Shown in pieces: positions 3,869 to 64,000 of a stretch of DNA of 64,000 nt. Position numbers and translations under genes: made by a program. The number at the start of each line of letters is the position of its first letter. The first letter of the stretch is position 1. The notes under the pieces are model-generated. The model was not told where the DNA came from. It did not search any database and saw nothing but the letters and a program-made list of their open reading frames with translations. Location: the NCBI RefSeq assembly GCF_019237615.1, contig NZ_JAFAGT010000059.1, positions 62,001 through 126,000 on the forward strand, written 5' to 3'. This DNA comes from Roseateles sp. Lineage in GTDB: Bacteria; Pseudomonadota; Gammaproteobacteria; Burkholderiales; Burkholderiaceae_C.

Positions 3869-4258
3869 ATGGCCATCTGCATCGTCCGCCTCGGCAGCCC
3901 CCGCACGCCCGACGAGGGCACCCGCATCGGCACCGTGCGCCGCCCGCCACGCGGCGTGCCCAAGGCCGAGTTCGCCTCGCGCGACTTCTACGACGTCTGG
4001 TTCCCCAACCTGGCGCCCAGCCTGGAGACGATGAAGCTGGGCCAGGCCGCCGAGACGGAGGCCCAATGGCAGGCCTTCAGGAAGAAGTACCGCGCCGAGA
4101 TGAGCGAGCCCGAGGCCCAGCACGCGCTGTCACTGCTGGCCACGCTGTCGGCGCAGACCCACTTTTCGGTGGGCTGCTACTGCATGGACGAGGCGCACTG
4201 CCACCGCTCGGTGCTGCGCGAATTGCTGGTGGACAAGGGCGCCGCCATCAAGGCCTGA
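3869..4258 (+). CDS. DUF488 family protein
   Basis: This 129-residue cytosolic protein belongs to the DUF488 family. The diagnostic C-terminal block VGCYCMDEAHCHRSVLRELL is present. The family is widespread and has no agreed function; the conserved Cys-His cluster suggests a catalytic or metal site, which is inference. The start at 3869 is well supported by a GAGGAGG ribosome binding site a few bases upstream. A long artefactual open frame extends upstream through the kinase gene in the same phase, so the start has to be read from the ribosome binding site and the family boundary. Confidence 0.85.
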   Translation: MAICIVRLGSPRTPDEGTRIGTVRRPPRGVPKAEFASRDFYDVWFPNLAPSLETMKLGQAAETEAQWQAFRKKYRAEMSEPEAQHALSLLATLSAQTHFSVGCYCMDEAHCHRSVLRELLVDKGAAIKA

Positions 4259-4286
4259 GCCCGGCTCTCCCATGCGGGCCGAGCGC

Positions 4287-4308
4287 CGGGCCGCCCCGAG
4301 CCGGCCCG
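4287..4308. terminator. GC-rich hairpin between convergent genes, possible bidirectional terminator
   Basis: CGGGCCG is followed after eight bases by its exact complement CGGCCCG, between the convergent DUF488 and WYL regulator genes. There is no T-run on either side, so a classical intrinsic terminator is not shown. The rest of the roughly 165-base gap shows nothing recognisable. Confidence 0.3.
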
Positions 4309-4423
4309 CTCTGGCGATGTGCTTGCGGCTCGGTGTCGCGGGCACCGCCACCCCCTCCCGGCATGCAGGACCGACCAGTTGCGCCCACGTACGGCGATGC
4401 ACGACTGGGCGAAGGCAGTGATC

Positions 4424-5119
4424 TCAAGCCCCACCACTCTCCTGCGCCTCGCGCTGGCGGTTCATGTCCGCCAGCGTCTTGCCCGGCTCGTCGCGGAAGG
4501 TTTCCTCCAGCACCTGCAGCGTCTCGACGCGATCGACGCGGAAGCTGCGGAAGTCGTTGCGCAGCTCGCACCAGGCGGCCAGCGTCCAGACAGGGCCCCA
4601 GAACAGGCAGGCCAGCGGCCGCACGACGCGCTCGCTCCTCACGCCACCCAGGTCCAGATACCCCATGCTGAGCTTGCGCCGCGCCTCGGTGGCCTCGCGC
4701 ATGGCCGTCAGGTGGGCGCTGGTCGCCGGGTCCAACGCCGGCAGCGGCGCGTACAAGGCCAGGCTCTCGGCCGCGGCGCGGGCGTCCAGCGGCAGCACGG
4801 CGAGGATCTTGGACAGCGCGTTCTCGGCCTGGCGCGCCAGCGCCGCATCCAGACGCGACTCGGACATGCGCACCGCCGCGACCAGCGCCTGGGCCTCCTG
4901 CTTGCTGAACATCAGCGGCGGCAGGTCGAAACCCACCCGCATGCGGTAGCCCACGCCGGCCTCGCCCTCGATGGGCACGCCCTGCTGGCCCAGCGCCGCG
5001 ATGTCGCGGTAGACGGTGCGCATGGACACCTCCAGCCGCTGGGCCAGGTAGTCGGCCGTCGTGAGGCGGCGTCCGCGGATGAGCTGGACGATCTGGAAGA
5101 GGCGGTCGGCACGGCGCAT
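4424..5119 (-). CDS. YafY/DeoR-type transcriptional regulator with WYL domain
   Basis: This 231-residue regulator starts with a winged helix-turn-helix at residues 3-55 (MRRADRLFQIVQLIRG, then LEVSMRTVYRDIAAL for the recognition helix). A WYL-type ligand-binding domain lies at about 130-225, including FWGPVWTLAAWCELR and FRVDRV. WYL regulators sense small ligands or nucleic acids. The start was set at the ATG opening MRRADRLF, because the upstream extension does not match the family. The nearest gene on the same strand upstream is the VOC protein, 68 bases away, which is a possible target or operon partner; no operator is evident. Confidence 0.88.
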   Translation of the reverse strand: MRRADRLFQIVQLIRGRRLTTADYLAQRLEVSMRTVYRDIAALGQQGVPIEGEAGVGYRMRVGFDLPPLMFSKQEAQALVAAVRMSESRLDAALARQAENALSKILAVLPLDARAAAESLALYAPLPALDPATSAHLTAMREATEARRKLSMGYLDLGGVRSERVVRPLACLFWGPVWTLAAWCELRNDFRSFRVDRVETLQVLEETFRDEPGKTLADMNRQREAQESGGA

Positions 5120-5187
5120 GGGCGGGCATTGTGCGGGAGCATCGCCGCGCCTCCTGCCACCCAAGACCCCATGGGCCTCAGGCCGGC

Positions 5188-5583
5188 TCAGCCCATGGCC
5201 GTGCAGAGCTCCACCAGCGTACCGTCCGGGCAGCGCACATACGCCACCGTCTGGCCCCAGGGCTTGGTGACGGGCGCGGCCAATGCGCGCGCGCCAGCGG
5301 TGATGGCGCGGTCGTAGGCTGCCTGCACGTCGGCCACCGTGAAGCCGATCTCAATGCCCAGCGGCCGGGGGCTGGTGTCGGCGGCGACGTAGTCGTGCTG
5401 CACGCTGTCGCGGGCCGTCGCATGGTCGACAAAGGCCAGCGTGGTGCCGCCGGCGCCGGTATCGACCTCGCCGTAGGCGCCGCTCTCGTGCAGGAAGCGC
5501 GTCTTCAGGCCGAAGGCGCGATCGAAGAAGGCCAGCGAGGCCGCGACGTCGGGTACGTAGACGAGGGTGTAGGCGAAGTTCAC
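5188..5583 (-). CDS. VOC (glyoxalase/bleomycin resistance) family protein
   Basis: This 131-residue protein has one vicinal-oxygen-chelate unit. It opens NFAYTLVYVPDVAASLAFF, the usual first strand and helix, and ends with the PDGTLVELC strand. The family includes glyoxalases, dioxygenases and drug-binding proteins; the substrate is not predictable here. The start is a GTG with AAGGAG placed just upstream (AAGGAGCCGCACGTG on the coding strand). The open frame continues much further upstream, antisense inside glpK, but nothing there looks like this family. Confidence 0.85.
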   Translation of the reverse strand: MNFAYTLVYVPDVAASLAFFDRAFGLKTRFLHESGAYGEVDTGAGGTTLAFVDHATARDSVQHDYVAADTSPRPLGIEIGFTVADVQAAYDRAITAGARALAAPVTKPWGQTVAYVRCPDGTLVELCTAMG

Positions 5584-5666
5584 GTGCGGCTCCTTGGCGT
5601 TGGCAACCCACATGCTGCGCCGGGCCGGCTGCCAAGTCCTGTCAGCAGCAACACCTCGGCGGCGCG

Positions 5667-53061: not shown

Positions 53062-53706
53062 TCAGATCGAACGGCGGCGGGCAATGCCCGCGACGGCGGC
53101 CAGGCCGGCCAGCAGCAACATGACGCTGCCGGGTTCCGGCACGGCGGCCACGTCGCCCACGCGCACGGCCCAGGCCTGGCCCAGGGTGTCGGTGGCGAGC
53201 TGGTCCTGGGCGCCCATGCCCATGAAGAAGGCCAGGCCCCAGCCGGGCTCGCCGGCCGTACCCGTCCAGAACACCGGGCCGACGGCGTTGCGCGGGTCGG
53301 CAAGCCCGCTGAAGCTGCCTGTGTTCCTGAGGCCGGCCGCGGAGTTGCCGAGGCCGGCGTAGTAGAGGTTGCCAAGCTCGCTGTTCCTGCCGGCGTTGTT
53401 GAGGCCCACATCGGTCGAGCCGTCATCCGCGTAGTCGAACTGCAGGCTCACGCCGTTGACCGGCAGGACCGTGGGCAGGCGCCAGTCGTCGAAGCCGCCG
53501 AAGCTCAGCGAAGCCGCCCATTGCATCGCATCGGCCTGGGTCCGCAGGCCGCCCAGGCCGGCGTCCGTGATCCAGGTCAGGTTGGTGGCGGTGTCGTAGA
53601 CCATGCTGCCGTTGGCGCGCAGCTGGAGTTCGGCCCGGGCCGCCCCTCCGATCAACAGGCCCGTCAGGGCGAGGGTGGCGAGCAGCTTGTTCTTGAACGG
53701 GATCAT
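53062..53706 (-). CDS. DUF1566-like exported protein with PEP-CTERM tag
   Basis: This 214-residue protein has a signal peptide (LLATLALTGLLIGGAARA). A domain opens with VYDTATNLTWITDA and contains GGFDDWRLPTV, typical of DUF1566/Lcl-like folds. The C-terminal sorting signal is VPEPGSVMLLLAGLAAVAGIARRRS. The family role is unknown; the tag predicts exosortase-dependent surface placement. It begins a three-gene run with the lysozyme-like protein 14 bases downstream. The 238 bases between this gene and the next divergent one show nothing beyond GC-rich spacer. Confidence 0.85.
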   Translation of the reverse strand: MIPFKNKLLATLALTGLLIGGAARAELQLRANGSMVYDTATNLTWITDAGLGGLRTQADAMQWAASLSFGGFDDWRLPTVLPVNGVSLQFDYADDGSTDVGLNNAGRNSELGNLYYAGLGNSAAGLRNTGSFSGLADPRNAVGPVFWTGTAGEPGWGLAFFMGMGAQDQLATDTLGQAWAVRVGDVAAVPEPGSVMLLLAGLAAVAGIARRRSI

Positions 53707-53944
53707 GGCGGGTGCGACGGCGTCGCGGAGCTGAGGCGGGTCGCATGGTCTGCAAACCGGCCGAGCCAGCGTCAGCGGGTTAGTCCGCAACCTTGCTGCC
53801 AATTCGAGCGGGCCGCATAACCACCGGGTATGCGCCATCGCGCCATGCACCGCCGGGCTGTCCTGGCGTGGGCGGGACAATCGGGCCCTCGCCCCGCCAA
53901 CCCCCTTGTTCGCGGGGGTCATCGACCTCCGCGCCCCCCACAGC

Positions 53945-54478
53945 ATGCCTCTTTCCGACTGGCTCTCGCCCGCCCAGCTCTTCGGCTACGTCGCCTTCGT
54001 GCTGGGCGTCGGCTGCTTCCTGCAGACCGACGACCGACGCTTCAAGCTCTTCATGACCGGCGAATGCGTCGCCTACGTCGCGCACTTCGCGCTGCTGGGC
54101 AACCCGACGGCGGTGGCGAGTTCGCTGCTGTCCATGCTGCGCTCGGTGCTGTCGCTGCACACGCGCTCGCGCTGGGTGGCGGTGGGCGTGATCGCTGCCA
54201 ACATCGGTTTCGGCCTGGCGATCGCAACCAGGCCCAGCGACTGGCTGCCACTGACGGCCTCCTGCCTGGGCACCCTCGCCCTCTTCACGCTGCAGGGCAT
54301 TCCGATGCGTCTGCTGATGCTGTGCGGCACCGGGCTGTGGATCGCCAACAACCTGATCGCCGGCTCCATCGGCGGCACGGCGCTGGAGGTGGTCGTCGCG
54401 GCAGTGAACCTGGCGACCATCGTGCGCATGGCGCGTGCCGGCCGGCGCGCGGCGCTCAGCGATTCGCCGAGTAGTTGA
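53945..54478 (+). CDS. YgjV-family inner membrane protein
   Basis: This 177-residue protein has about six hydrophobic helices. It opens LSPAQLFGYVAFVLGVGCFLQTDDRRFK, and TGECVAYVAHFALLG matches the YgjV (Imp-YgjV) family of small membrane proteins with unknown function. A longer in-frame start at 53906 exists but lacks a ribosome binding site. The 3' end overlaps the convergent metallo-beta-lactamase-fold gene by 23 bases. Confidence 0.78.
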   Translation: MPLSDWLSPAQLFGYVAFVLGVGCFLQTDDRRFKLFMTGECVAYVAHFALLGNPTAVASSLLSMLRSVLSLHTRSRWVAVGVIAANIGFGLAIATRPSDWLPLTASCLGTLALFTLQGIPMRLLMLCGTGLWIANNLIAGSIGGTALEVVVAAVNLATIVRMARAGRRAALSDSPSS

Positions 54479-55391
54479 CCGGCAGCCAGTCGTAGCCCTT
54501 GCCGTCGGCGCGAAGCCGGCCGATGCCGGGGAAGCTGACATGCGCGACGGCGACGTAGTAGCCGCCCTGGGCCGCCGCGGCGTAGGCCTTCTCGCGCGCA
54601 GGCGCTGCGGCCTTGGGGTCGGTGTCGAACTGGATGGTCACCGCGGGCTCCTTGAACTGCACCGCGGCCACGTGCATCAGGTCGCCCCAGAACATCATCT
54701 TCTGGCCCTTGCTCTCGGCCACGTAGTTGCTGTGGCCGGGCGTGTGGCCATAGGCCGGGAAGGCCTTGACGCCCGGCACGATCTCGACGCCGTCCGCGCT
54801 GCCGTCGAACGGCTTGAAGCGCCCCGTGTCGGCAAAGGCCTTGACGATGGCGGCGGTGGACTTGGCGCCATCGCTCTTGGCCACCTTCTCGGGCGCGAGC
54901 CAGAAGTCGGCATCGCGCTTGTCCAGACGCAGCATGGCGTTGGGGAAGGCGGCAGCGCCGCCGATGTGGTCGCCGTGCATGTGCGTGATGACGACCTCGT
55001 CGACCTGCTCAGGCGCATAGCCCGAGGCCTTGAGGTTGGCCAGCACGCGGCCGGCCGTGGGGCCGAACAGGCCGGCCGCCCCGGTGTCCACCAGCACGAT
55101 CTTGGCGCCGGTGTTGATCAGGTAGGCATTGACCGAGGTTTCCAGCGGCAGGCCCAGGTAGGCATGCTGCAGCGCGCGCAGTGTGTTGGGCACGGGCTGC
55201 TGCAGCAACTTGTCCACGGCCAGGTCCAGCGTGCCGTCGGACAGGGCCGTGATCTCGAAGTCGCCCAGCTGCAGGCGGTACCAGCCGGGCGCCTGGCCCT
55301 TGAGCTGCGGGCCGGCGGCGAGGGCCGGCGCGGCGCCCAGGCCAAGACCGAGGGCGAAGGCAAGGGCGGCGGTAAGCGGGCGACGGGGCAT
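54456..55391 (-). CDS. Exported metallo-beta-lactamase-fold hydrolase
   Basis: This 311-residue protein has a signal peptide ending APALAAG. The metallo-beta-lactamase fold is clear: LVDTGAAGLFG, the zinc motif THMHGDHIGG (HxHxDH), GHTPGHSNYV and FWGDLMHV. It belongs to the quorum-quencher/hydrolase-like branch; the substrate is unknown. GGAG lies before the ATG. The gene is divergent from the TonB receptor, and the sigma-54 control region lies in the gap between them, nearer the receptor. Confidence 0.88.
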   Translation of the reverse strand: MPRRPLTAALAFALGLGLGAAPALAAGPQLKGQAPGWYRLQLGDFEITALSDGTLDLAVDKLLQQPVPNTLRALQHAYLGLPLETSVNAYLINTGAKIVLVDTGAAGLFGPTAGRVLANLKASGYAPEQVDEVVITHMHGDHIGGAAAFPNAMLRLDKRDADFWLAPEKVAKSDGAKSTAAIVKAFADTGRFKPFDGSADGVEIVPGVKAFPAYGHTPGHSNYVAESKGQKMMFWGDLMHVAAVQFKEPAVTIQFDTDPKAAAPAREKAYAAAAQGGYYVAVAHVSFPGIGRLRADGKGYDWLPVNYSANR

Positions 55392-55506
55392 CGTGGGTCT
55401 CCGGGGGGTGGAAGGAAGACGGCGCAGGATACCGGCGCCCCGGCATCCCCGCAGCCCCTCGGGGATGGCTGTCTGCCCGCTGGACAGCGCCGGCGGCAGC
55501 GACTGA

Positions 55507-55524
55507 CTGGAATCCGGACAATGC
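55507..55524. promoter_or_regulatory. Candidate upstream activator site for the sigma-54 regulator (receptor copy)
   Basis: CTGGAATCCGGACAATGC matches 15 of 18 bases with CTGAATTCCGGACACTGC at 59493-59510. Measured from the shared TCCGGACA core, both lie exactly 82 bases before their sigma-54 promoters. A weaker shared ACGCC block occurs at the same offset further in (55536 and 59522). Confidence 0.65.
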
Positions 55525-55594
55525 CGGCCCCGCGGACGCCGAAACCGCGGGTTAGCTCGCAAGGGTTTGTCTGGGGTTCGCCCCATGTTGGCGC

Positions 55595-55609
55595 GGGCAC
55601 GGCTTTTGC
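55595..55609 (+). promoter_or_regulatory. Sigma-54 (-24/-12) promoter of the TonB receptor gene
   Basis: GGGCACGGCTTTTGC fits the sigma-54 consensus TGGCACG-N4-TTGC in all but the first base, with the invariant GG and GC ten bases apart. The start of transcription would lie near 55621. The leader then carries GACAACAAACCAGGAGACAAGCC before the ATG, very like the leader of the ABC operon. Confidence 0.85.
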
Positions 55610-55654
55610 GCTTTGGGGGGCTGGCACCCAAGACAACAAACCAGGAGACAAGCC

Positions 55655-57850
<2,196 letters not shown>

Positions 57851-57868
57851 GCCGCGACCGAGGACAGG

Positions 57869-57914
57869 CCCTGCAGACCGTCCGACGCGCAGCGACGGAC
57901 GGCGACCTGCAGGG
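57869..57914. promoter_or_regulatory. Stable hairpin covering the ribosome binding site of the sigma-54 regulator
   Basis: CCCTGCAG pairs with CTGCAGGG, and inside it CCGTCCG pairs with CGGACGG, around an 11-base loop. That gives a two-part stem of 15 pairs. The 3' arm includes the first part of AGGGAG, the ribosome binding site for the ATG at 57922. It could block translation of the regulator when transcribed from the receptor promoter, or simply end the receptor transcript; no T-run follows. Confidence 0.5.
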
Positions 57915-57921
57915 AGCCGGC

Positions 57922-59492
<1,571 letters not shown>

Positions 59493-59496
<4 letters not shown>

Positions 59497-59510
59497 ATTC
59501 CGGACACTGC
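59493..59510. promoter_or_regulatory. Candidate upstream activator site for the sigma-54 regulator (ABC operon copy)
   Basis: CTGAATTCCGGACACTGC overlaps the last codon of the regulator gene. Its TCCGGACA core lies 82 bases before the -24/-12 promoter at 59581. It matches the receptor-side copy at 15 of 18 positions and in spacing. Confidence 0.65.
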
Positions 59511-59580
59511 ACGGGTCCATAACGCCTCAAAACCTGGGGGCAACCCGGACGAAATCCGCCTCCGGCGCCACTTCCCCGCC

Positions 59581-59595
59581 GGGCACGGCCCTTGC
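59581..59595 (+). promoter_or_regulatory. Sigma-54 (-24/-12) promoter of the ABC transporter operon
   Basis: GGGCACGGCCCTTGC, followed by A, matches TGGCACG-N4-TTGCA except for the first base. GG and GC are ten bases apart. The start of transcription would be near 59607, and the leader includes GACAACGAACCACAGGAGACAAGCC before the ATG. Confidence 0.87.
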
Positions 59596-59657
59596 AAAAA
59601 GGGAAGACAGCGTCTGCCGACAGAGCAGATGACAACGAACCACAGGAGACAAGCCCC

Positions 59658-60848
59658 ATGCGCCCCACCATGCGCCGCTTTGCCCTCGCCGCCGCACTCG
59701 TGCTGCCCGGTATCGCGCCGGCCGCCGGCAACGAGATCCGCATCGCCCATGTCTACAGCAAGACCGGCCCGCTGGAGGCCTATGGCAAGCAGACGCAGAT
59801 CGGCCTGATGATGGGCCTGGACTACGCGACCGGCGGCACCATGACCGTCGCGGGCAAGAAGCTGGTCGTCATCGAGAAGGACGACCAGGGCAAGCCCGAC
59901 GTGGGCAAGAGCCTGCTGGCCGCCGCCTATGGCGACGACAAGGCCGACATCGCCGTCGGGCCCTCGTCCTCCGGCGTTGCACTGGCCATGCTGCCGGTGG
60001 CCGAGGAGTACAAGAAGATCCTGCTGGTGGAGCCGGCCGTGGCCGACTCCATCACCGGCGACAAGTGGAACAAGTACATCTTCCGCACCGGCCGCAACTC
60101 GTCGCAGGACGCCATCGGCAACGCCGTCGCGTCCGACATCCCGGGCCTCAGCATCGGCATCCTGGCCCAGGACTACGCCTTCGGCCGCGACGCCGTGAAG
60201 GCCTACAAGGAAGCGCTGAAGAAAGCCAAGATCGTCCACGAGGAATACCTGCCCACGGCGACGACGGACTTCACCGCTGGCATCCAGCGCCTGGTGGACG
60301 CACTGAAGGACAGGCCCGGGCCCAAGGTCATCGGCGTCGTCTGGGCCGGCGGCACGCCGCCCTTCGGTGCGCTGGCCGCGCTGGACCTGCAAAAGCGCTA
60401 CGGCATCGCCGTGGGCTCGGGCGGCAACATCCTGCCGGCCATGACGGCCTACAAGCAGTTCCCCGGCATGGAGGGCGCGACCTACTACTACTTCGGCATC
60501 CCGAAGAACCCGGTCAACGAATGGCTGGTGGCCAACCACTACAAGCAATACAAGCAGCCGCCCGACTTCTTCACGGCCGGCGGCATGAGCGCGGCCATCG
60601 CCCTCGTCGAGGCGTTGAAGAGGACCAACGGCGACACGGCGACCAACAAGCTCATCAAGACCATGGAGGGCATGAGCTTCGAGACGCCCAAGGGCAAGAT
60701 GACCTTCCGGCCCGAAGACCACCAGGCCATGCAGTCCATGTACCACTTCCGCATCAAGGCGGACCCGGCCTTCCCCTGGGGCGTGCCGGAGCTGGTGCGG
60801 GAGATCAAGCCCGAGGAAATGAACGTGCCCATCCGCAACAAGCGTTGA
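59658..60848 (+). CDS. ABC transporter periplasmic substrate-binding protein, Liv-type
   Basis: This 396-residue protein has a signal peptide ending APAAGN and the type-1 periplasmic binding fold of the branched-chain amino-acid (LivK/J) superfamily: IRIAHVYSKTGPLEAYGKQTQIGL at the start, AVGPSSSGVALAMLPVAEE, and ILAQDYAFGRDAVKAY. Related proteins also bind aromatic acids, amides or other organic acids, so a leucine-type ligand is not assured. AGGAG precedes the ATG. It is the first gene of a five-gene transport operon behind a sigma-54 promoter. Confidence 0.92.
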   Translation: MRPTMRRFALAAALVLPGIAPAAGNEIRIAHVYSKTGPLEAYGKQTQIGLMMGLDYATGGTMTVAGKKLVVIEKDDQGKPDVGKSLLAAAYGDDKADIAVGPSSSGVALAMLPVAEEYKKILLVEPAVADSITGDKWNKYIFRTGRNSSQDAIGNAVASDIPGLSIGILAQDYAFGRDAVKAYKEALKKAKIVHEEYLPTATTDFTAGIQRLVDALKDRPGPKVIGVVWAGGTPPFGALAALDLQKRYGIAVGSGGNILPAMTAYKQFPGMEGATYYYFGIPKNPVNEWLVANHYKQYKQPPDFFTAGGMSAAIALVEALKRTNGDTATNKLIKTMEGMSFETPKGKMTFRPEDHQAMQSMYHFRIKADPAFPWGVPELVREIKPEEMNVPIRNKR

Positions 60849-60864
60849 TGGCGGACGACGGCCC

Positions 60865-61608
60865 GTGCTCGAGACAAAGAACCTGACGATACGCTTCGGC
60901 GGCCATGTGGCCGTCGACGGCGTGTCCTGCGCCTTCCAGCCCGGCACGCTGACGGCCATCGTGGGCCCCAACGGCGCTGGCAAGACGACCTACTTCAACC
61001 TGATCTCGGGCCAGCTGCCCGCGAGCAGCGGCGAGGTCTGGCTGGACGGCGAGAACCTGACGGGCCAGCCCGCGCCGCTGCGTACGCGCCGCGGCCTCGG
61101 CCGGGCCTTCCAGCTGACGCAGCTGTTCGCCCACCTGACGGTGCTGGAGAACGTACGGCTGGCCGTGCAGGCACGCCACGGCAAGGGGCTGCGCATGCTG
61201 TCGGTGTGGCTGTCGCACCGCGAGCTGATAGCCGAGGCGCGGGCCATCCTGGAGCGCGTGCGCCTGGCTTCGCGCGCCGACGACCTCGCCGCCAGCCTGC
61301 CGCATGGCGACCAGCGCAAGCTGGAGGTGGCGATGCTGATCGCGCTTGCACCGAAGGTCTATCTGTTCGACGAGCCGACGGCCGGCATGAGCGTGGACGA
61401 GGTCCCAGTCGTGCTGGACCTGATCCGCGCGCTGAAGGCGGAGAAGAAGCACACGCTGCTGCTCGTGGAGCACAAGATGGACGTCGTGCGCGAGCTGGCC
61501 GACCGCATCATCGTGCTGCACCAGGGCAAGCTTGTCGCCGATGGCGACCCCGCCACCGTCATCGCCTCGCCCATCGTGCAAGAGGCCTACCTCGGGGTCG
61601 CGGCATGA
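60865..61608 (+). CDS. ABC transporter ATP-binding protein, LivG-type
   Basis: This 247-residue ATPase has Walker A GPNGAGKTT, a Q-loop region FQLTQLFAHLTVLENV, a signature-like SLPHGDQRKLEVAML, Walker B VYLFDEPTAGMS and the switch His in LLVEHKMD. The HGDQ signature replaces the more usual SGGQ/YGQQ, as in several Liv-type carriers of organic acids. It begins with GTG, because the ATG overlapping the previous stop is in another frame. Its stop overlaps the next ATG (ATGA). Confidence 0.93.
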   Translation: MLETKNLTIRFGGHVAVDGVSCAFQPGTLTAIVGPNGAGKTTYFNLISGQLPASSGEVWLDGENLTGQPAPLRTRRGLGRAFQLTQLFAHLTVLENVRLAVQARHGKGLRMLSVWLSHRELIAEARAILERVRLASRADDLAASLPHGDQRKLEVAMLIALAPKVYLFDEPTAGMSVDEVPVVLDLIRALKAEKKHTLLLVEHKMDVVRELADRIIVLHQGKLVADGDPATVIASPIVQEAYLGVAA

Positions 61609-62336
61609 ACCTGCTGACGTTGAAAGGCGTTCATACGCACGTCGGGGCGTATCACATCCTTCACGGCGTGGACCTCGAAGTGCCGATCGGCCAGGTGACC
61701 ATGCTGCTGGGCCGCAACGGCGCAGGCAAGACCAGCACGCTGCGCACGCTGATGGGCCTGTGGACGGCCAGCGCCGGTGCGGTCTCGTTCAAGGGCGAGG
61801 ACATCACCAAGCTCGCCACGCCCGACATCGCGGCGCAGGGCATCGCCTACGTGCCCGAGACCATGGGTATCTTCGGCGAGCTCAGCGTTGCGGAGAACCT
61901 GCTGCTGGCGGCCCGCGGCGCCAAGCGCATCGTCGACCTCGACGCCAAGCGCCTGGACTGGCTGTTCGGACTCTTCCCTGCGCTGAAGACCTTCTGGACC
62001 CACCCGGCCGGCAAGCTCAGCGGCGGGCAGAAGCAGATGCTGGCCGTCGCCCGCGCCATGATTGAGCCGCGCGAACTGCTGGTCATCGACGAGCCCAGCA
62101 AGGGGCTGGCCCCGGCCATCGTGCAGAACCTCATCACCGCGCTGCGCGAACTGAAGGGCACGCGGACGACGGTCCTGCTCGTCGAGCAGAACTTCCGCGT
62201 CGCCACCGAACTGGGCGACAGCGTGGCCGTCATGGACGACGGCCGCATCGTGCACCGCGGCGCGATGCGCGAGCTGATCGAAGACTCCGGCCTGCAGCAG
62301 CGCCTGCTGGGCCTCTCGCTGGCGGCCCACCAATGA
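61605..62336 (+). CDS. ABC transporter ATP-binding protein, LivF-type
   Basis: This 243-residue ATPase has Walker A GRNGAGKTS, signature LSGGQKQMLAVARAM, Walker B LLVIDEPSKGLAP and the switch region VLLVEQN. It pairs with the LivG-type subunit to drive transport through the two permeases that follow. ATGA overlaps on both sides indicate tight translational coupling. Confidence 0.94.
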   Translation: MNLLTLKGVHTHVGAYHILHGVDLEVPIGQVTMLLGRNGAGKTSTLRTLMGLWTASAGAVSFKGEDITKLATPDIAAQGIAYVPETMGIFGELSVAENLLLAARGAKRIVDLDAKRLDWLFGLFPALKTFWTHPAGKLSGGQKQMLAVARAMIEPRELLVIDEPSKGLAPAIVQNLITALRELKGTRTTVLLVEQNFRVATELGDSVAVMDDGRIVHRGAMRELIEDSGLQQRLLGLSLAAHQ

Positions 62337-63307
62337 AGCTCGACCCCCGCCCTCTTGCCCTGCTCGCCGCGCTGATGCTGCTGGCGTTGCCGCTGACCGG
62401 CAGCGCCAGCACCTGGCTCAACCTGACGCTGGCCGGCGTGGCCATGGGCCTCATCATCTTCGTCATCGCCTCGGGCCTGACGCTGGTCTTCGGACTGATG
62501 GACGTACTGAACTTCGGCCACGGCGTCTTCATCGCGCTGGGCGCCTTCATGGCGACCACCGTGCTGGCCGCATTGGCGCCCTGGACCGGCAGCCCCGACG
62601 TACTGGCCAACCTCGCCGCACTGGCCGCCGCCTGCCTCGCCGGCATGGGCATCGCGGCGGCCGTGGGCGTCGTGTTCGAGCGCGTGCTGGTGCGGCCCGT
62701 CTACGGCCAGCACCTGAAGCAGATCCTCATCACGATGGGCGGCATGATCATCGGCGAGGAGCTGATCAAGGCCAGCTGGGGCGCGCAGCTGATCCCGCTG
62801 CCGCTTCCCGACGCGCTGCGCGGCATCTTCCTGATCGGTGACGTGGCGGTGGAGAAGTTCCGCGTGCTGGCCATGGTCATCGGCCTCGTCGTACTGGTCG
62901 CGCTGCTGCTGGTGCTGAACCGCACCAAGATCGGCCTCCTGATCCGCGCCGGCGTGCAGGACCGCGAGATGGTGGAGGCGCTGGGCTACCGCATCAAGCG
63001 CCTCTTCGTCGGCGTCTTCGTCGCCGGCTCAGCGCTCGCGGGTCTGGGCGGCGTGCTCTGGGGCCTGGTGCAGCAGGGCGTCACGCCGCAGATCGGCGCC
63101 CAGGTCAACCTGCTGCTCTTCATCGTCATCATCATCGGCGGCCTGGGCTCGACGATTGGCTGCCTGGTCGGCGCGCTGCTGGTGGGCCTGGTGGCCAATT
63201 ACGTCGGCTTCCTGGCTCCGAAAGCGGCCCTCTTCTCCAACATCGGGCTGATGGTCGCCATTCTTCTCTGGCGCCCGCAAGGCCTCTACCCGGTGGGGGC
63301 GAAATGA
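62333..63307 (+). CDS. ABC transporter permease, LivH-type
   Basis: This 324-residue inner-membrane protein has about eight helices. It shows the LivH-type blocks GLTLVFGLMDVLNFGHG in the first third and GYRIKRLFVGVFVAGSALAGLGG in the last third, where it contacts the ATPase. It ends LLWRPQGLYPVG. It forms the membrane channel with the LivM-type subunit. The ATG overlaps the livF-like stop. Confidence 0.93.
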   Translation: MKLDPRPLALLAALMLLALPLTGSASTWLNLTLAGVAMGLIIFVIASGLTLVFGLMDVLNFGHGVFIALGAFMATTVLAALAPWTGSPDVLANLAALAAACLAGMGIAAAVGVVFERVLVRPVYGQHLKQILITMGGMIIGEELIKASWGAQLIPLPLPDALRGIFLIGDVAVEKFRVLAMVIGLVVLVALLLVLNRTKIGLLIRAGVQDREMVEALGYRIKRLFVGVFVAGSALAGLGGVLWGLVQQGVTPQIGAQVNLLLFIVIIIGGLGSTIGCLVGALLVGLVANYVGFLAPKAALFSNIGLMVAILLWRPQGLYPVGAK

Positions 63308-64000
63308 TGATCCGCACGCTGCTCTCCCACGACCTACCGCGCAGCCGCATCCTGGCCGCACTGTTGATCGCCTGTTTCGTCGGGCTGCTCGGCGCGCCCT
63401 TCATCTTCCCCGGCACGCAGGCGCTCAACGTCGCGGCCAAGATCCTGGTCTTCATCCTGCTCGTCGCCAGCTACGACCTGCTGCTGGGCTATACCGGCAT
63501 CGTCAGCTTCGCGCACACCATGTTCGTCGGCATCGGCGCCTACGGCATCGCGATCGCGTCGACGCGGCTGGGGCCGGACTGGGCATCGCTGGGCATCGGC
63601 TTCGTCGCAGCACTTGCGCTGAGCGCCGTTCTGGCCCTGGCCGTGGGCCTGGCCAGCCTGCGCGTGAAGGCCATCTTCTTCGCGATGATCACGCTGGCCG
63701 TGGCCTCGGCCTTCATGACGCTGTGCTCGCAGCTCAGCGACTTCACGGGCGGCGAGGACGGGCTCAACTTCCAGCTGCCTGAAGCACTGCGCCCGTCCAC
63801 CGAGTTCTTGGAGGAGCCGGTACTGGGCGTCATGCTCGACGGCCGGCTGCTGACCTACTACGGGCTCTTCGTCGCCGTCACGGCCCTCATCGTCGTGCTG
63901 CTGCGCATCGTCAACTCGCCATTCGGCCGCGTGCTGCAGGCCATACGCGAGAACGAGTTCCGCGCCGAGGCTATCGGCTACCGCCCCGTGGTCTACCGCA
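63304..64000 (+). CDS. ABC transporter permease, LivM-type, 3' end outside the window
   Basis: The gene opens with ATGATG overlapping the LivH-type stop codon and stays open to the right edge, giving 232 residues here. It has the LivM-type pattern YDLLLGYTGIVSFAHTMFVGIGAYG, then LAVGLASLRVKAIFFAMITLAVA, FTGGEDGLNF, and the cytoplasmic coupling loop RIVNSPFGRVLQAIRENEFRAEAIGY. LivM-type subunits usually end about 80-110 residues later. Genes after it, which might name the substrate, are not visible. Confidence 0.93.
   Translation, partial: MMIRTLLSHDLPRSRILAALLIACFVGLLGAPFIFPGTQALNVAAKILVFILLVASYDLLLGYTGIVSFAHTMFVGIGAYGIAIASTRLGPDWASLGIGFVAALALSAVLALAVGLASLRVKAIFFAMITLAVASAFMTLCSQLSDFTGGEDGLNFQLPEALRPSTEFLEEPVLGVMLDGRLLTYYGLFVAVTALIVVLLRIVNSPFGRVLQAIRENEFRAEAIGYRPVVYR

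Follow-up and report, generated by a model that had tools for sequence, protein, structure and literature searches.

The stretch of DNA analysed here, 64,000 nucleotides of a Roseateles sp. genome (assembly GCF_019237615.1, contig NZ_JAFAGT010000059.1, positions 62,001 to 126,000) and hereafter called the window, ends in a locus that combines a gene for a TonB-dependent receptor (TBDR), a gene for a PAS-AAA-Fis sigma-54 activator and a Liv-type ATP-binding cassette (ABC) transporter operon (Table 1). A sequence-only reading of the same DNA had recognized this gene order correctly. We describe the locus, its two promoters and its relatives, and consider it as a candidate uptake system for breakdown products of poly(3-hydroxybutyrate) (PHB).

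Both domains of the receptor score above their Pfam cut-offs, as is characteristic of TonB-dependent receptors. Against TIGR01783 (TonB siderophore receptor) it reaches 171.5, below the curated cut-off of 223.5, and siderophores were consequently rejected as ligand class. The activator shows the motifs of a bacterial enhancer-binding protein (GETGTGKE at 221, GAYTGA at 268, a Tyr variant, and FLDEIG at 291) and a Fis-type helix-turn-helix. Its PAS_4 match at residues 58–150 falls just under the cut-off (23.0 versus 23.1 bits), and no receiver domain was among the matches. The gene starts 71 bp after the TBDR gene, or 137 bp after it if the alternative ATG at 57988 is used. Given that 10 of 17 orthologue matches from the genus begin at residues 12–16 of the longer reading, the start is possibly at 57988 rather than 57922. 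Since the activator follows so closely behind the TBDR, transcription starting at the TBDR promoter could continue into it and create a positive feedback loop. The hairpin between both genes (-37.2 kcal/mol for 57848–57930, z -3.9) possibly tunes this read-through.

The operon had been described as comprising five genes. This holds for the periplasmic substrate-binding protein (SBP1) and LivGFHM, while a sixth gene, encoding an alpha/beta hydrolase, follows to the right of the window. This hydrolase lacks a signal peptide as judged by eye and is weakly similar to 3-oxoadipate enol-lactonase (65 bits, below cut-off). The solved chains nearest to SBP1 are 3n0x and 3nnd. All five transporter subunits score below the NCBIfam Liv and Urt cut-offs shown (for the ATPases, among the best 25 models), and branched-chain amino acids and urea were rejected as ligand classes on these grounds. 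Thus names referring to branched-chain amino acid transport, urea transport or siderophore-receptor function should not be used for these proteins.

Table 1. Features of the locus; positions are counted from the first letter of the window.
Feature	Position	Strand	Remarks
MBL-fold (metallo-beta-lactamase-fold) hydrolase, AidB-lactonase-like	54456..55391	(-)	PF00753 71 bits; NF047979 167 bits, below cut-off 360; signal peptide by eye
Upstream palindrome copy before TBDR (TGTCTGCCCGCTGGACA)	55470..55486	(+)	ends 109 bp before -24 GG
Main predicted upstream activator site (UAS), TBDR promoter (TGACTGGAATCCGGACA)	55504..55520	(+)	ends 75 bp before -24 GG
Second element, AAACCnCGGG...CCCG-like, TBDR promoter	55542..55559	(+)	by eye
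Putative -24/-12 promoter of TBDR gene	55595..55609	(+)	9/10 consensus positions
TonB-dependent receptor (TBDR)	55655..57850	(+)	PF07715 Plug 70 bits, PF00593 barrel 140 bits; signal peptide by eye
Hairpin between TBDR and activator	57869..57914	(+)	strong, nested, no T-run
PAS-AAA-Fis sigma-54 activator, HbcR-like	57922..59496	(+)	Sigma54_activat (PF00158) 231 bits; HTH_8 (PF02954)
Predicted activator site, ABC operon (CGCCTGAATTCCGGACA)	59490..59506	(+)	ends 75 bp before -24 GG; overlaps activator stop codon
Second element, copy at ABC promoter	59530..59547	(+)	by eye
Putative -24/-12 promoter of ABC operon	59581..59595	(+)	9/10 consensus positions
SBP1, periplasmic substrate-binding protein	59658..60848	(+)	PF13458 188 bits
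LivG-type ATPase	60865..61608	(+)	profile matches
LivF-type ATPase	about 61605..62336	(+)	profile matches
LivH-type permease	62333..63307	(+)	PF02653 117 bits
LivM-type permease	63304..64389	(+)	runs beyond window end (64000)
Alpha/beta hydrolase, sixth operon gene	64389-65231		just right of window; from contig continuation (L008)

Two predicted sigma-54 promoters with a common upstream palindrome

Sigma-54 promoters carry GG at -24 and GC at -12 within the consensus TGGCAC-N5-TTGC, against which all matches were scored. Both sites lie exactly where the sequence-only reading had placed them, 45 bp (TBDR) and 62 bp (SBP1) before the start codon. That such matches would be evidence by themselves was not borne out: with up to two mismatches, the window holds 75 of them versus 97 expected in shuffled sequence, which is chance level. 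Four matches have a single mismatch, and two of these are the TBDR and ABC promoters. What lifts the two above chance is their position, their near-identity, their conservation and the palindrome that they have in common upstream. Both agree with the sequence pattern of sigma-54 promoters and are conserved in relatives, and they are the sole two exact occurrences of GGGCACGGCYYTTGC in the 4.8-Mb genome. An RpoN DNA-binding domain is encoded in 20 of 20 genomes of the genus, this one included.

The palindrome TGNCTG-N5-CNGACA is common to the TBDR and SBP1 promoters when the upstream regions of the window are compared with those of 19 related loci (L045–L063, hereafter the group). The group comes mostly from Roseateles, Pelomonas, Paucibacter, Mitsuaria, Inhella or unplaced Burkholderiales and, as we assume, belongs to the Sphaerotilaceae. 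Mononucleotide shuffles were as good as the palindromes of the window in none of 200 cases for the TBDR and in 3 of 200 for SBP1. Within the window and L045–L055, the palindrome stands 74–76 bp before the -24 GG in 12 of 12 TBDR promoters (the copy of L048 matching at 8/10 positions) and in 9 of 12 SBP1 promoters. The remaining three SBP1 promoters have the palindrome at 86 bp (L047) or weak sites only (L048, L054). In both promoters of the window the second element stands between palindrome and -24 element.

As the UAS pattern alone has six matches in the own genome, one of them at this locus, the palindrome by itself is not specific. Combined with the promoter, it yielded 29 matches in 16 of the 20 genus genomes, with at most two per genome, and all 29 are located before the TBDR (14) or SBP1 (15, of which L158 at a contig end was placed by hand). 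A reversed-pattern control gave one match in the same genomes. Because the combined pattern was built from these loci, its presence there is expected, and the informative result is the lack of any match elsewhere. An activator orthologue (at least 87% identity) occurs in 18 of the 20 genomes, among them all 16 with the pattern, while G003 and G019 possess neither orthologue nor pattern.

For the TBDR, promoter plus palindrome reach a score of at least 18 in 16 of the 18 group loci with enough upstream sequence (L062 was left out for its short upstream sequence); the exceptions are L061 with 17 and L057 with 0, the promoter of the latter lying further upstream. In contrast, none of 61 TBDR loci outside the group, which have no activator in the stretch retrieved, reach this score, the maximum being 15. 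Four group loci (L056, L058, L060, L063) carry the combination before the TBDR, yet no activator within the retrieved stretch. L056, L058 and L060 have a weaker palindrome (8–9/10) that stands at 142–145 bp, and in their genomes (G047, G172, G129) the activator is encoded on a different contig or at distances of about 70 and 37 kb. At 20 activator loci of other genera, the combination before SBP1 beats all 200 shuffles in 18 cases and all but one in L223, while L216 fails (19 of 200 as good); the spacing of the palindrome varies there. The combination thus appears to be older than the genus. Taken together, the common palindrome, the equal 75-bp spacing and the genus-wide exclusivity lend computational support to the claim that one sigma-54 activator serves both transport units, and a single activator driving TBDR and ABC operon is the best reading of these sites.

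PHB genes in the company of operon, receptor and activator

To our knowledge, the uptake of breakdown products of PHB and other polyesters across the outer membrane is poorly known. For the inner-membrane half of the locus, the link to PHB comes from relatives. Among 299 genomes sampled from the family, the activator occurs in at least 153 and the TBDR in at least 16, and 94 have the 3-hydroxybutyrate (3HB) oligomer hydrolase PF10605; only the best three or four candidates per genome were scored for activator and TBDR, which makes the counts of these two lower bounds. All 16 TBDR genomes also have the activator. For co-location we relied on listed coordinates, available for 149 of the 153 activator genomes. 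Among the 62 listed genomes holding both, 34 have the oligomer hydrolase gene no more than 12 kb downstream of the activator and on its strand, mostly at 5–8 kb, a distance of one Liv operon. Counted differently, it is found within 12 kb downstream in 34 of the 133 listed genomes that lack the TBDR.

Twenty activator loci hand-picked from the 149 were retrieved, and all of them show activator, SBP1, LivG, LivF, LivH, LivM and alpha/beta hydrolase in the same order. In seven an oligomer hydrolase gene stands between LivM and the alpha/beta hydrolase; since these were selected for its proximity, 7/20 is no frequency. A type-2 short-chain-length polyhydroxyalkanoate (scl-PHA) depolymerase gene lies between SBP1 and LivG in L217, L218, L219 and L234, always above the NF050059 cut-off, and a 3HB dehydrogenase gene adjoins the operon in L227 (84%), L228 (96%) and L234 (54%), as identified by similarity to the enzyme of L059. 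The oligomer hydrolase of L217 begins with a lipoprotein-like signal, as judged by eye. The secreted-type depolymerases encoded in the same operons and the transporters themselves speak for external PHB. Plasmid records yielded 34 entries with an activator homologue (H10 read directly, H16 via SBP1) and six with SBP1, of which five were read. A plasmid of the alphaproteobacterium Mariluticola halotolerans carries, in this order, the activator, an annotated 3-hydroxybutyrate dehydrogenase, SBP1, LivGFHM and the alpha/beta hydrolase. In L216 a chemoreceptor gene (4089–5630, recognized by methyl-accepting chemotaxis protein models) is located between activator and SBP1, and a look-alike was seen by eye in L223 (8927–10510), which suggests chemotaxis to the substrate.

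For the receptor, the best 80 of 552 relatives were inspected, of which the 61 outside the group belong by title mostly to Lysobacteraceae and Janthinobacterium and are 52–57% identical. The activator is absent from the retrieved stretch in all 61. Of these loci, 54 have a PHB gene in the retrieved flanks (within about 10 kb, by tblastn): the oligomer hydrolase in 35, a type-1 depolymerase-like gene in 15, PhaE in 14, a 3HB dehydrogenase-like gene in 10 and a type-2 depolymerase-like gene in 9. These labels rest on one representative per gene type checked with hidden Markov models; for the dehydrogenase this was the protein of L059, a locus within the group. In L059 (NF009093, 302 versus cut-off 258), L227 and L228 the 3HB dehydrogenase gene directly precedes the TBDR. 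The oligomer hydrolase occurs in 1 of 16 TBDR genomes versus 61 of 133 other listed activator genomes (Fisher p 0.002), a difference that is indicative only, as the genomes are related. Instead of the activator, 42 of the 61 loci (L064–L124) contain a large sensor kinase, 47 a GntP-like permease and 35 a response regulator of the LuxR type, labels that are partly by eye; the GntP-like permease of the Lysobacteraceae locus L106, named by eye, had no Pfam or NCBIfam match at the limits used.

The activator leads to 3HB as well, through relatives and not through the window itself, where no tie to 3HB catabolism was seen. Among 321 genomes of the class, five outside the family have an activator homologue at E<=1e-95. 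Homologues of other families are 51–58% identical and stand by genes for tripartite ATP-independent periplasmic (TRAP) or GntP transport: a TRAP binding protein and a CoA-transferase in L261, an acetoacetyl-CoA reductase and a GntP permease in L262, a TRAP binding protein in L264, and in L263 a 3HB dehydrogenase (365 bits, cut-off 258), two CoA-transferase subunits and a thiolase, with TRAP genes recognized by eye. The short-chain dehydrogenase of L262 was rejected as a 3HB dehydrogenase, since it matches the NCBIfam acetoacetyl-CoA reductase model (387 versus cut-off 302). No clear 3HB gene was found in the neighborhoods of L265 and L266. Such neighbors would be the company expected of HbcR, a sigma-54 activator of Pseudomonas that is reported to be activated by (R)-3HB (PMC10482368).

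The own genome encodes a 3HB dehydrogenase (364 bits versus cut-off 258). On another contig it carries a type-1 scl-PHA depolymerase by model (179 versus 150), with a modest Pfam score (42 bits versus cut-off 23) and a signal peptide by eye. With this enzyme and no PF10605 match, the strain could release oligomers extracellularly, which would then require an uptake route. Divergent from the dehydrogenase gene stands an alpha/beta hydrolase gene (L248:2312–3193) whose product resembles, by eye, that of the operon.

As to the neighborhood, the MBL gene is divergent beside the TBDR in all 11 loci L045–L055; it was not found in the eight other group loci L056–L063, three of which have less than 4 kb upstream. 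It is a possible accessory component of the locus, whose product might act in the periplasm on oligomers or lactones. Further left, 53062–53709 encodes a protein with a PEP-CTERM-like end (VPEPGSVMLLLAGLAAVAGIARRR). Reading the genes right of the window had been proposed as a way to find a catabolic pathway. There the hydrolase gene is followed by a second, different Liv cluster (LivG2, LivF2, SBP2, LivH2, LivM2; L008:2292–7029, corresponding to 65292–70029), which may serve a related compound. SBP2 has 3i09 as nearest solved chain. Two plasmids carry counterparts of the second cluster in the same order: that of Hoeflea (L270) has it divergent from the SBP1 operon, and that of Azospirillum (L273; LivH2 76%) directly before an activator homologue.

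Proposed substrate and function of the locus

Taken together, we consider it likely that the locus represents a two-membrane scavenging system for PHB breakdown products under one HbcR-like sigma-54 switch. With fair confidence, the substrate would be (R)-3HB or its oligomers from PHB. The sequence-only reading had envisioned one substrate for both membranes, and this part gains support, as the gene company of each half independently points to PHB products; its other part, a substrate left unknown, no longer stands.

For ligands, binding, activation and direction of transport, we infer the following scenario. The activator would sense (R)-3HB or a close relative and bind the palindrome about 75 bp upstream of the two sigma-54 promoters, thereby switching on the TBDR gene along with the SBP-LivGFHM-hydrolase operon. 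Soluble 3HB oligomers would be produced by PHA depolymerases that the cell itself or others secrete. Judged by gene company, the TBDR may then move the oligomers across the outer membrane and the Liv-type transporter may move oligomers or monomer across the inner membrane. Inside the cell the alpha/beta hydrolase would split the oligomers, and the 3HB dehydrogenase encoded elsewhere in the genome could oxidize 3HB to acetoacetate.

Several observations weigh against this reading. Gene company is no proof of a ligand, and TBDR and ABC transporter need not carry the same molecule. The co-occurrence counts rest on related, non-independent genomes; a PHB gene is missing from the retrieved flanks of seven of the 61 TBDR loci, four of these stretches being shorter than 14 kb; and the operon hydrolase matches no characterised family above cut-off. 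On four alphaproteobacterial plasmids, the SBP1-Liv-hydrolase set occurs without the activator in the stretch read and next to genes for an AMP-ligase, an enoyl-CoA hydratase and MaoC. A wider ligand range is thus possible, although such neighbors fit 3HB-CoA metabolism as well as that of other hydroxy acids. An oligomer hydrolase of Cupriavidus is described as intracellular and as acting on products of intracellular PHB depolymerases (PMC2864759); consequently, this enzyme alone is no proof of external PHB use. In the own genome, the 3HB dehydrogenase gene lies outside the predicted regulon, and PF10605 has no match. 

Three other explanations have to be weighed. It seems unlikely to us that 3HB monomer enters through the activator-controlled ABC transporter while the TBDR is merely co-induced and imports a metal complex, a cofactor or something else. 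The receptor is indeed nearest to the NCBIfam TonB-siderophore models, though below cut-off, and most sampled activator genomes are without a TBDR match (16 versus 153 of 299). However, 54 of its 61 activator-less relatives have a gene for a depolymerase, the oligomer hydrolase, PhaE or a 3HB dehydrogenase nearby, the dehydrogenase gene directly precedes it in three loci, and it tends to replace the oligomer hydrolase in the related genomes compared above. It is also improbable that the system serves not 3HB but a different hydroxy acid, a lactone or an oligomer of another ester (for instance aromatic lactones or further hydroxyalkanoates), since genes for 3HB dehydrogenase, scl-PHA depolymerase and oligomer hydrolase recur within or next to both operon and TBDR in several families. 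Such a substrate would fit the lactonase-like MBL gene, the weak enol-lactonase likeness of the operon hydrolase and the acyl-CoA gene sets by alphaproteobacterial SBP1 homologues.

Finally, both promoters might be real but under other or separate sigma-54 activators, with the neighboring activator being incidental. This we regard as very unlikely. While the own genome has five further matches to sigma-54 activators at E<=1e-60, and G007 and G018 possess the activator orthologue without an exact combined match, which counts against the proposed switch as well, every pattern-bearing genus genome has the orthologue, the two genomes without it lack the pattern, and the combination is absent from all 61 TBDR loci without activator.

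If the locus indeed scavenges PHB products, a broader scenario could be envisioned, for which we see the evidence as evenly poised. The TBDR would belong to a widespread beta- and gammaproteobacterial receptor clade dedicated to the import of PHB-derived 3HB oligomers. In Pelomonas and Roseateles an HbcR-like sigma-54 regulon would have recruited it along with a Liv-type transporter for oligomers, and it would tend to take the place of the oligomer hydrolase used by relatives, so that import comes first and hydrolysis takes place inside.

Comparison with known systems

The scavenging system proposed here would yield a receptor clade, an ABC transporter that is now annotated for branched-chain amino acids, a candidate oligomer hydrolase and a predicted regulator site. 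Since the activator is present in at least 153 of 299 family genomes and heads the same operon in all 20 loci examined, many annotations would change. The system would also bear on how PHA bioplastics are biodegraded and how degraders cross-feed one another. In searches of the open-access literature, we found no TonB receptor or Liv-type transporter described for PHB products. Papers that mention TonB receptors along with PHB list them in a table of the granule proteome (PMC11150862), name one among several plastisphere membrane proteins (PMC10882806) or treat them as siderophore receptors (PMC2864759, where the oligomer hydrolase is compared with the intracellular Cupriavidus enzyme).

Compared by architecture and genomic company, the activator resembles HbcR of Pseudomonas (PA2005 and PFLU2630) in its predicted PAS-AAA-Fis layout, its sigma-54 targets and the company of 3HB genes. 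The predicted targets differ, being the TBDR gene and the Liv-type ABC operon in the present locus. The PAS domain of HbcR is placed at 17–123 (PMC8694187).

The transporter shares with the Liv and urea types of the hydrophobic amino acid uptake family (HAAT; LivKHMGF, UrtABCDE) a substrate-binding protein, two ATPases and two permeases of these families. In contrast, its subunits stay below the Liv and Urt cut-offs, and 3HB compounds are suggested by the regulator, the extra hydrolase and the genomic company. PHB degradation loci with PF10605 or a secreted-type scl-PHA depolymerase are close counterparts, as relatives carry the same activator and ABC operon and can have these enzymes inside; the version in the window is without them and encodes in their place a TonB receptor and, divergently, an MBL hydrolase. 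TonB-receptor loci for glycans, of the carbohydrate-utilization (CUT) or polysaccharide-utilization (PUL) type, likewise unite an outer-membrane receptor, an inner-membrane transporter, hydrolases and a dedicated regulator around one polymer, whereas here the polymer would be a polyester, the control sigma-54 dependent and the transporter a Liv-type ABC system.

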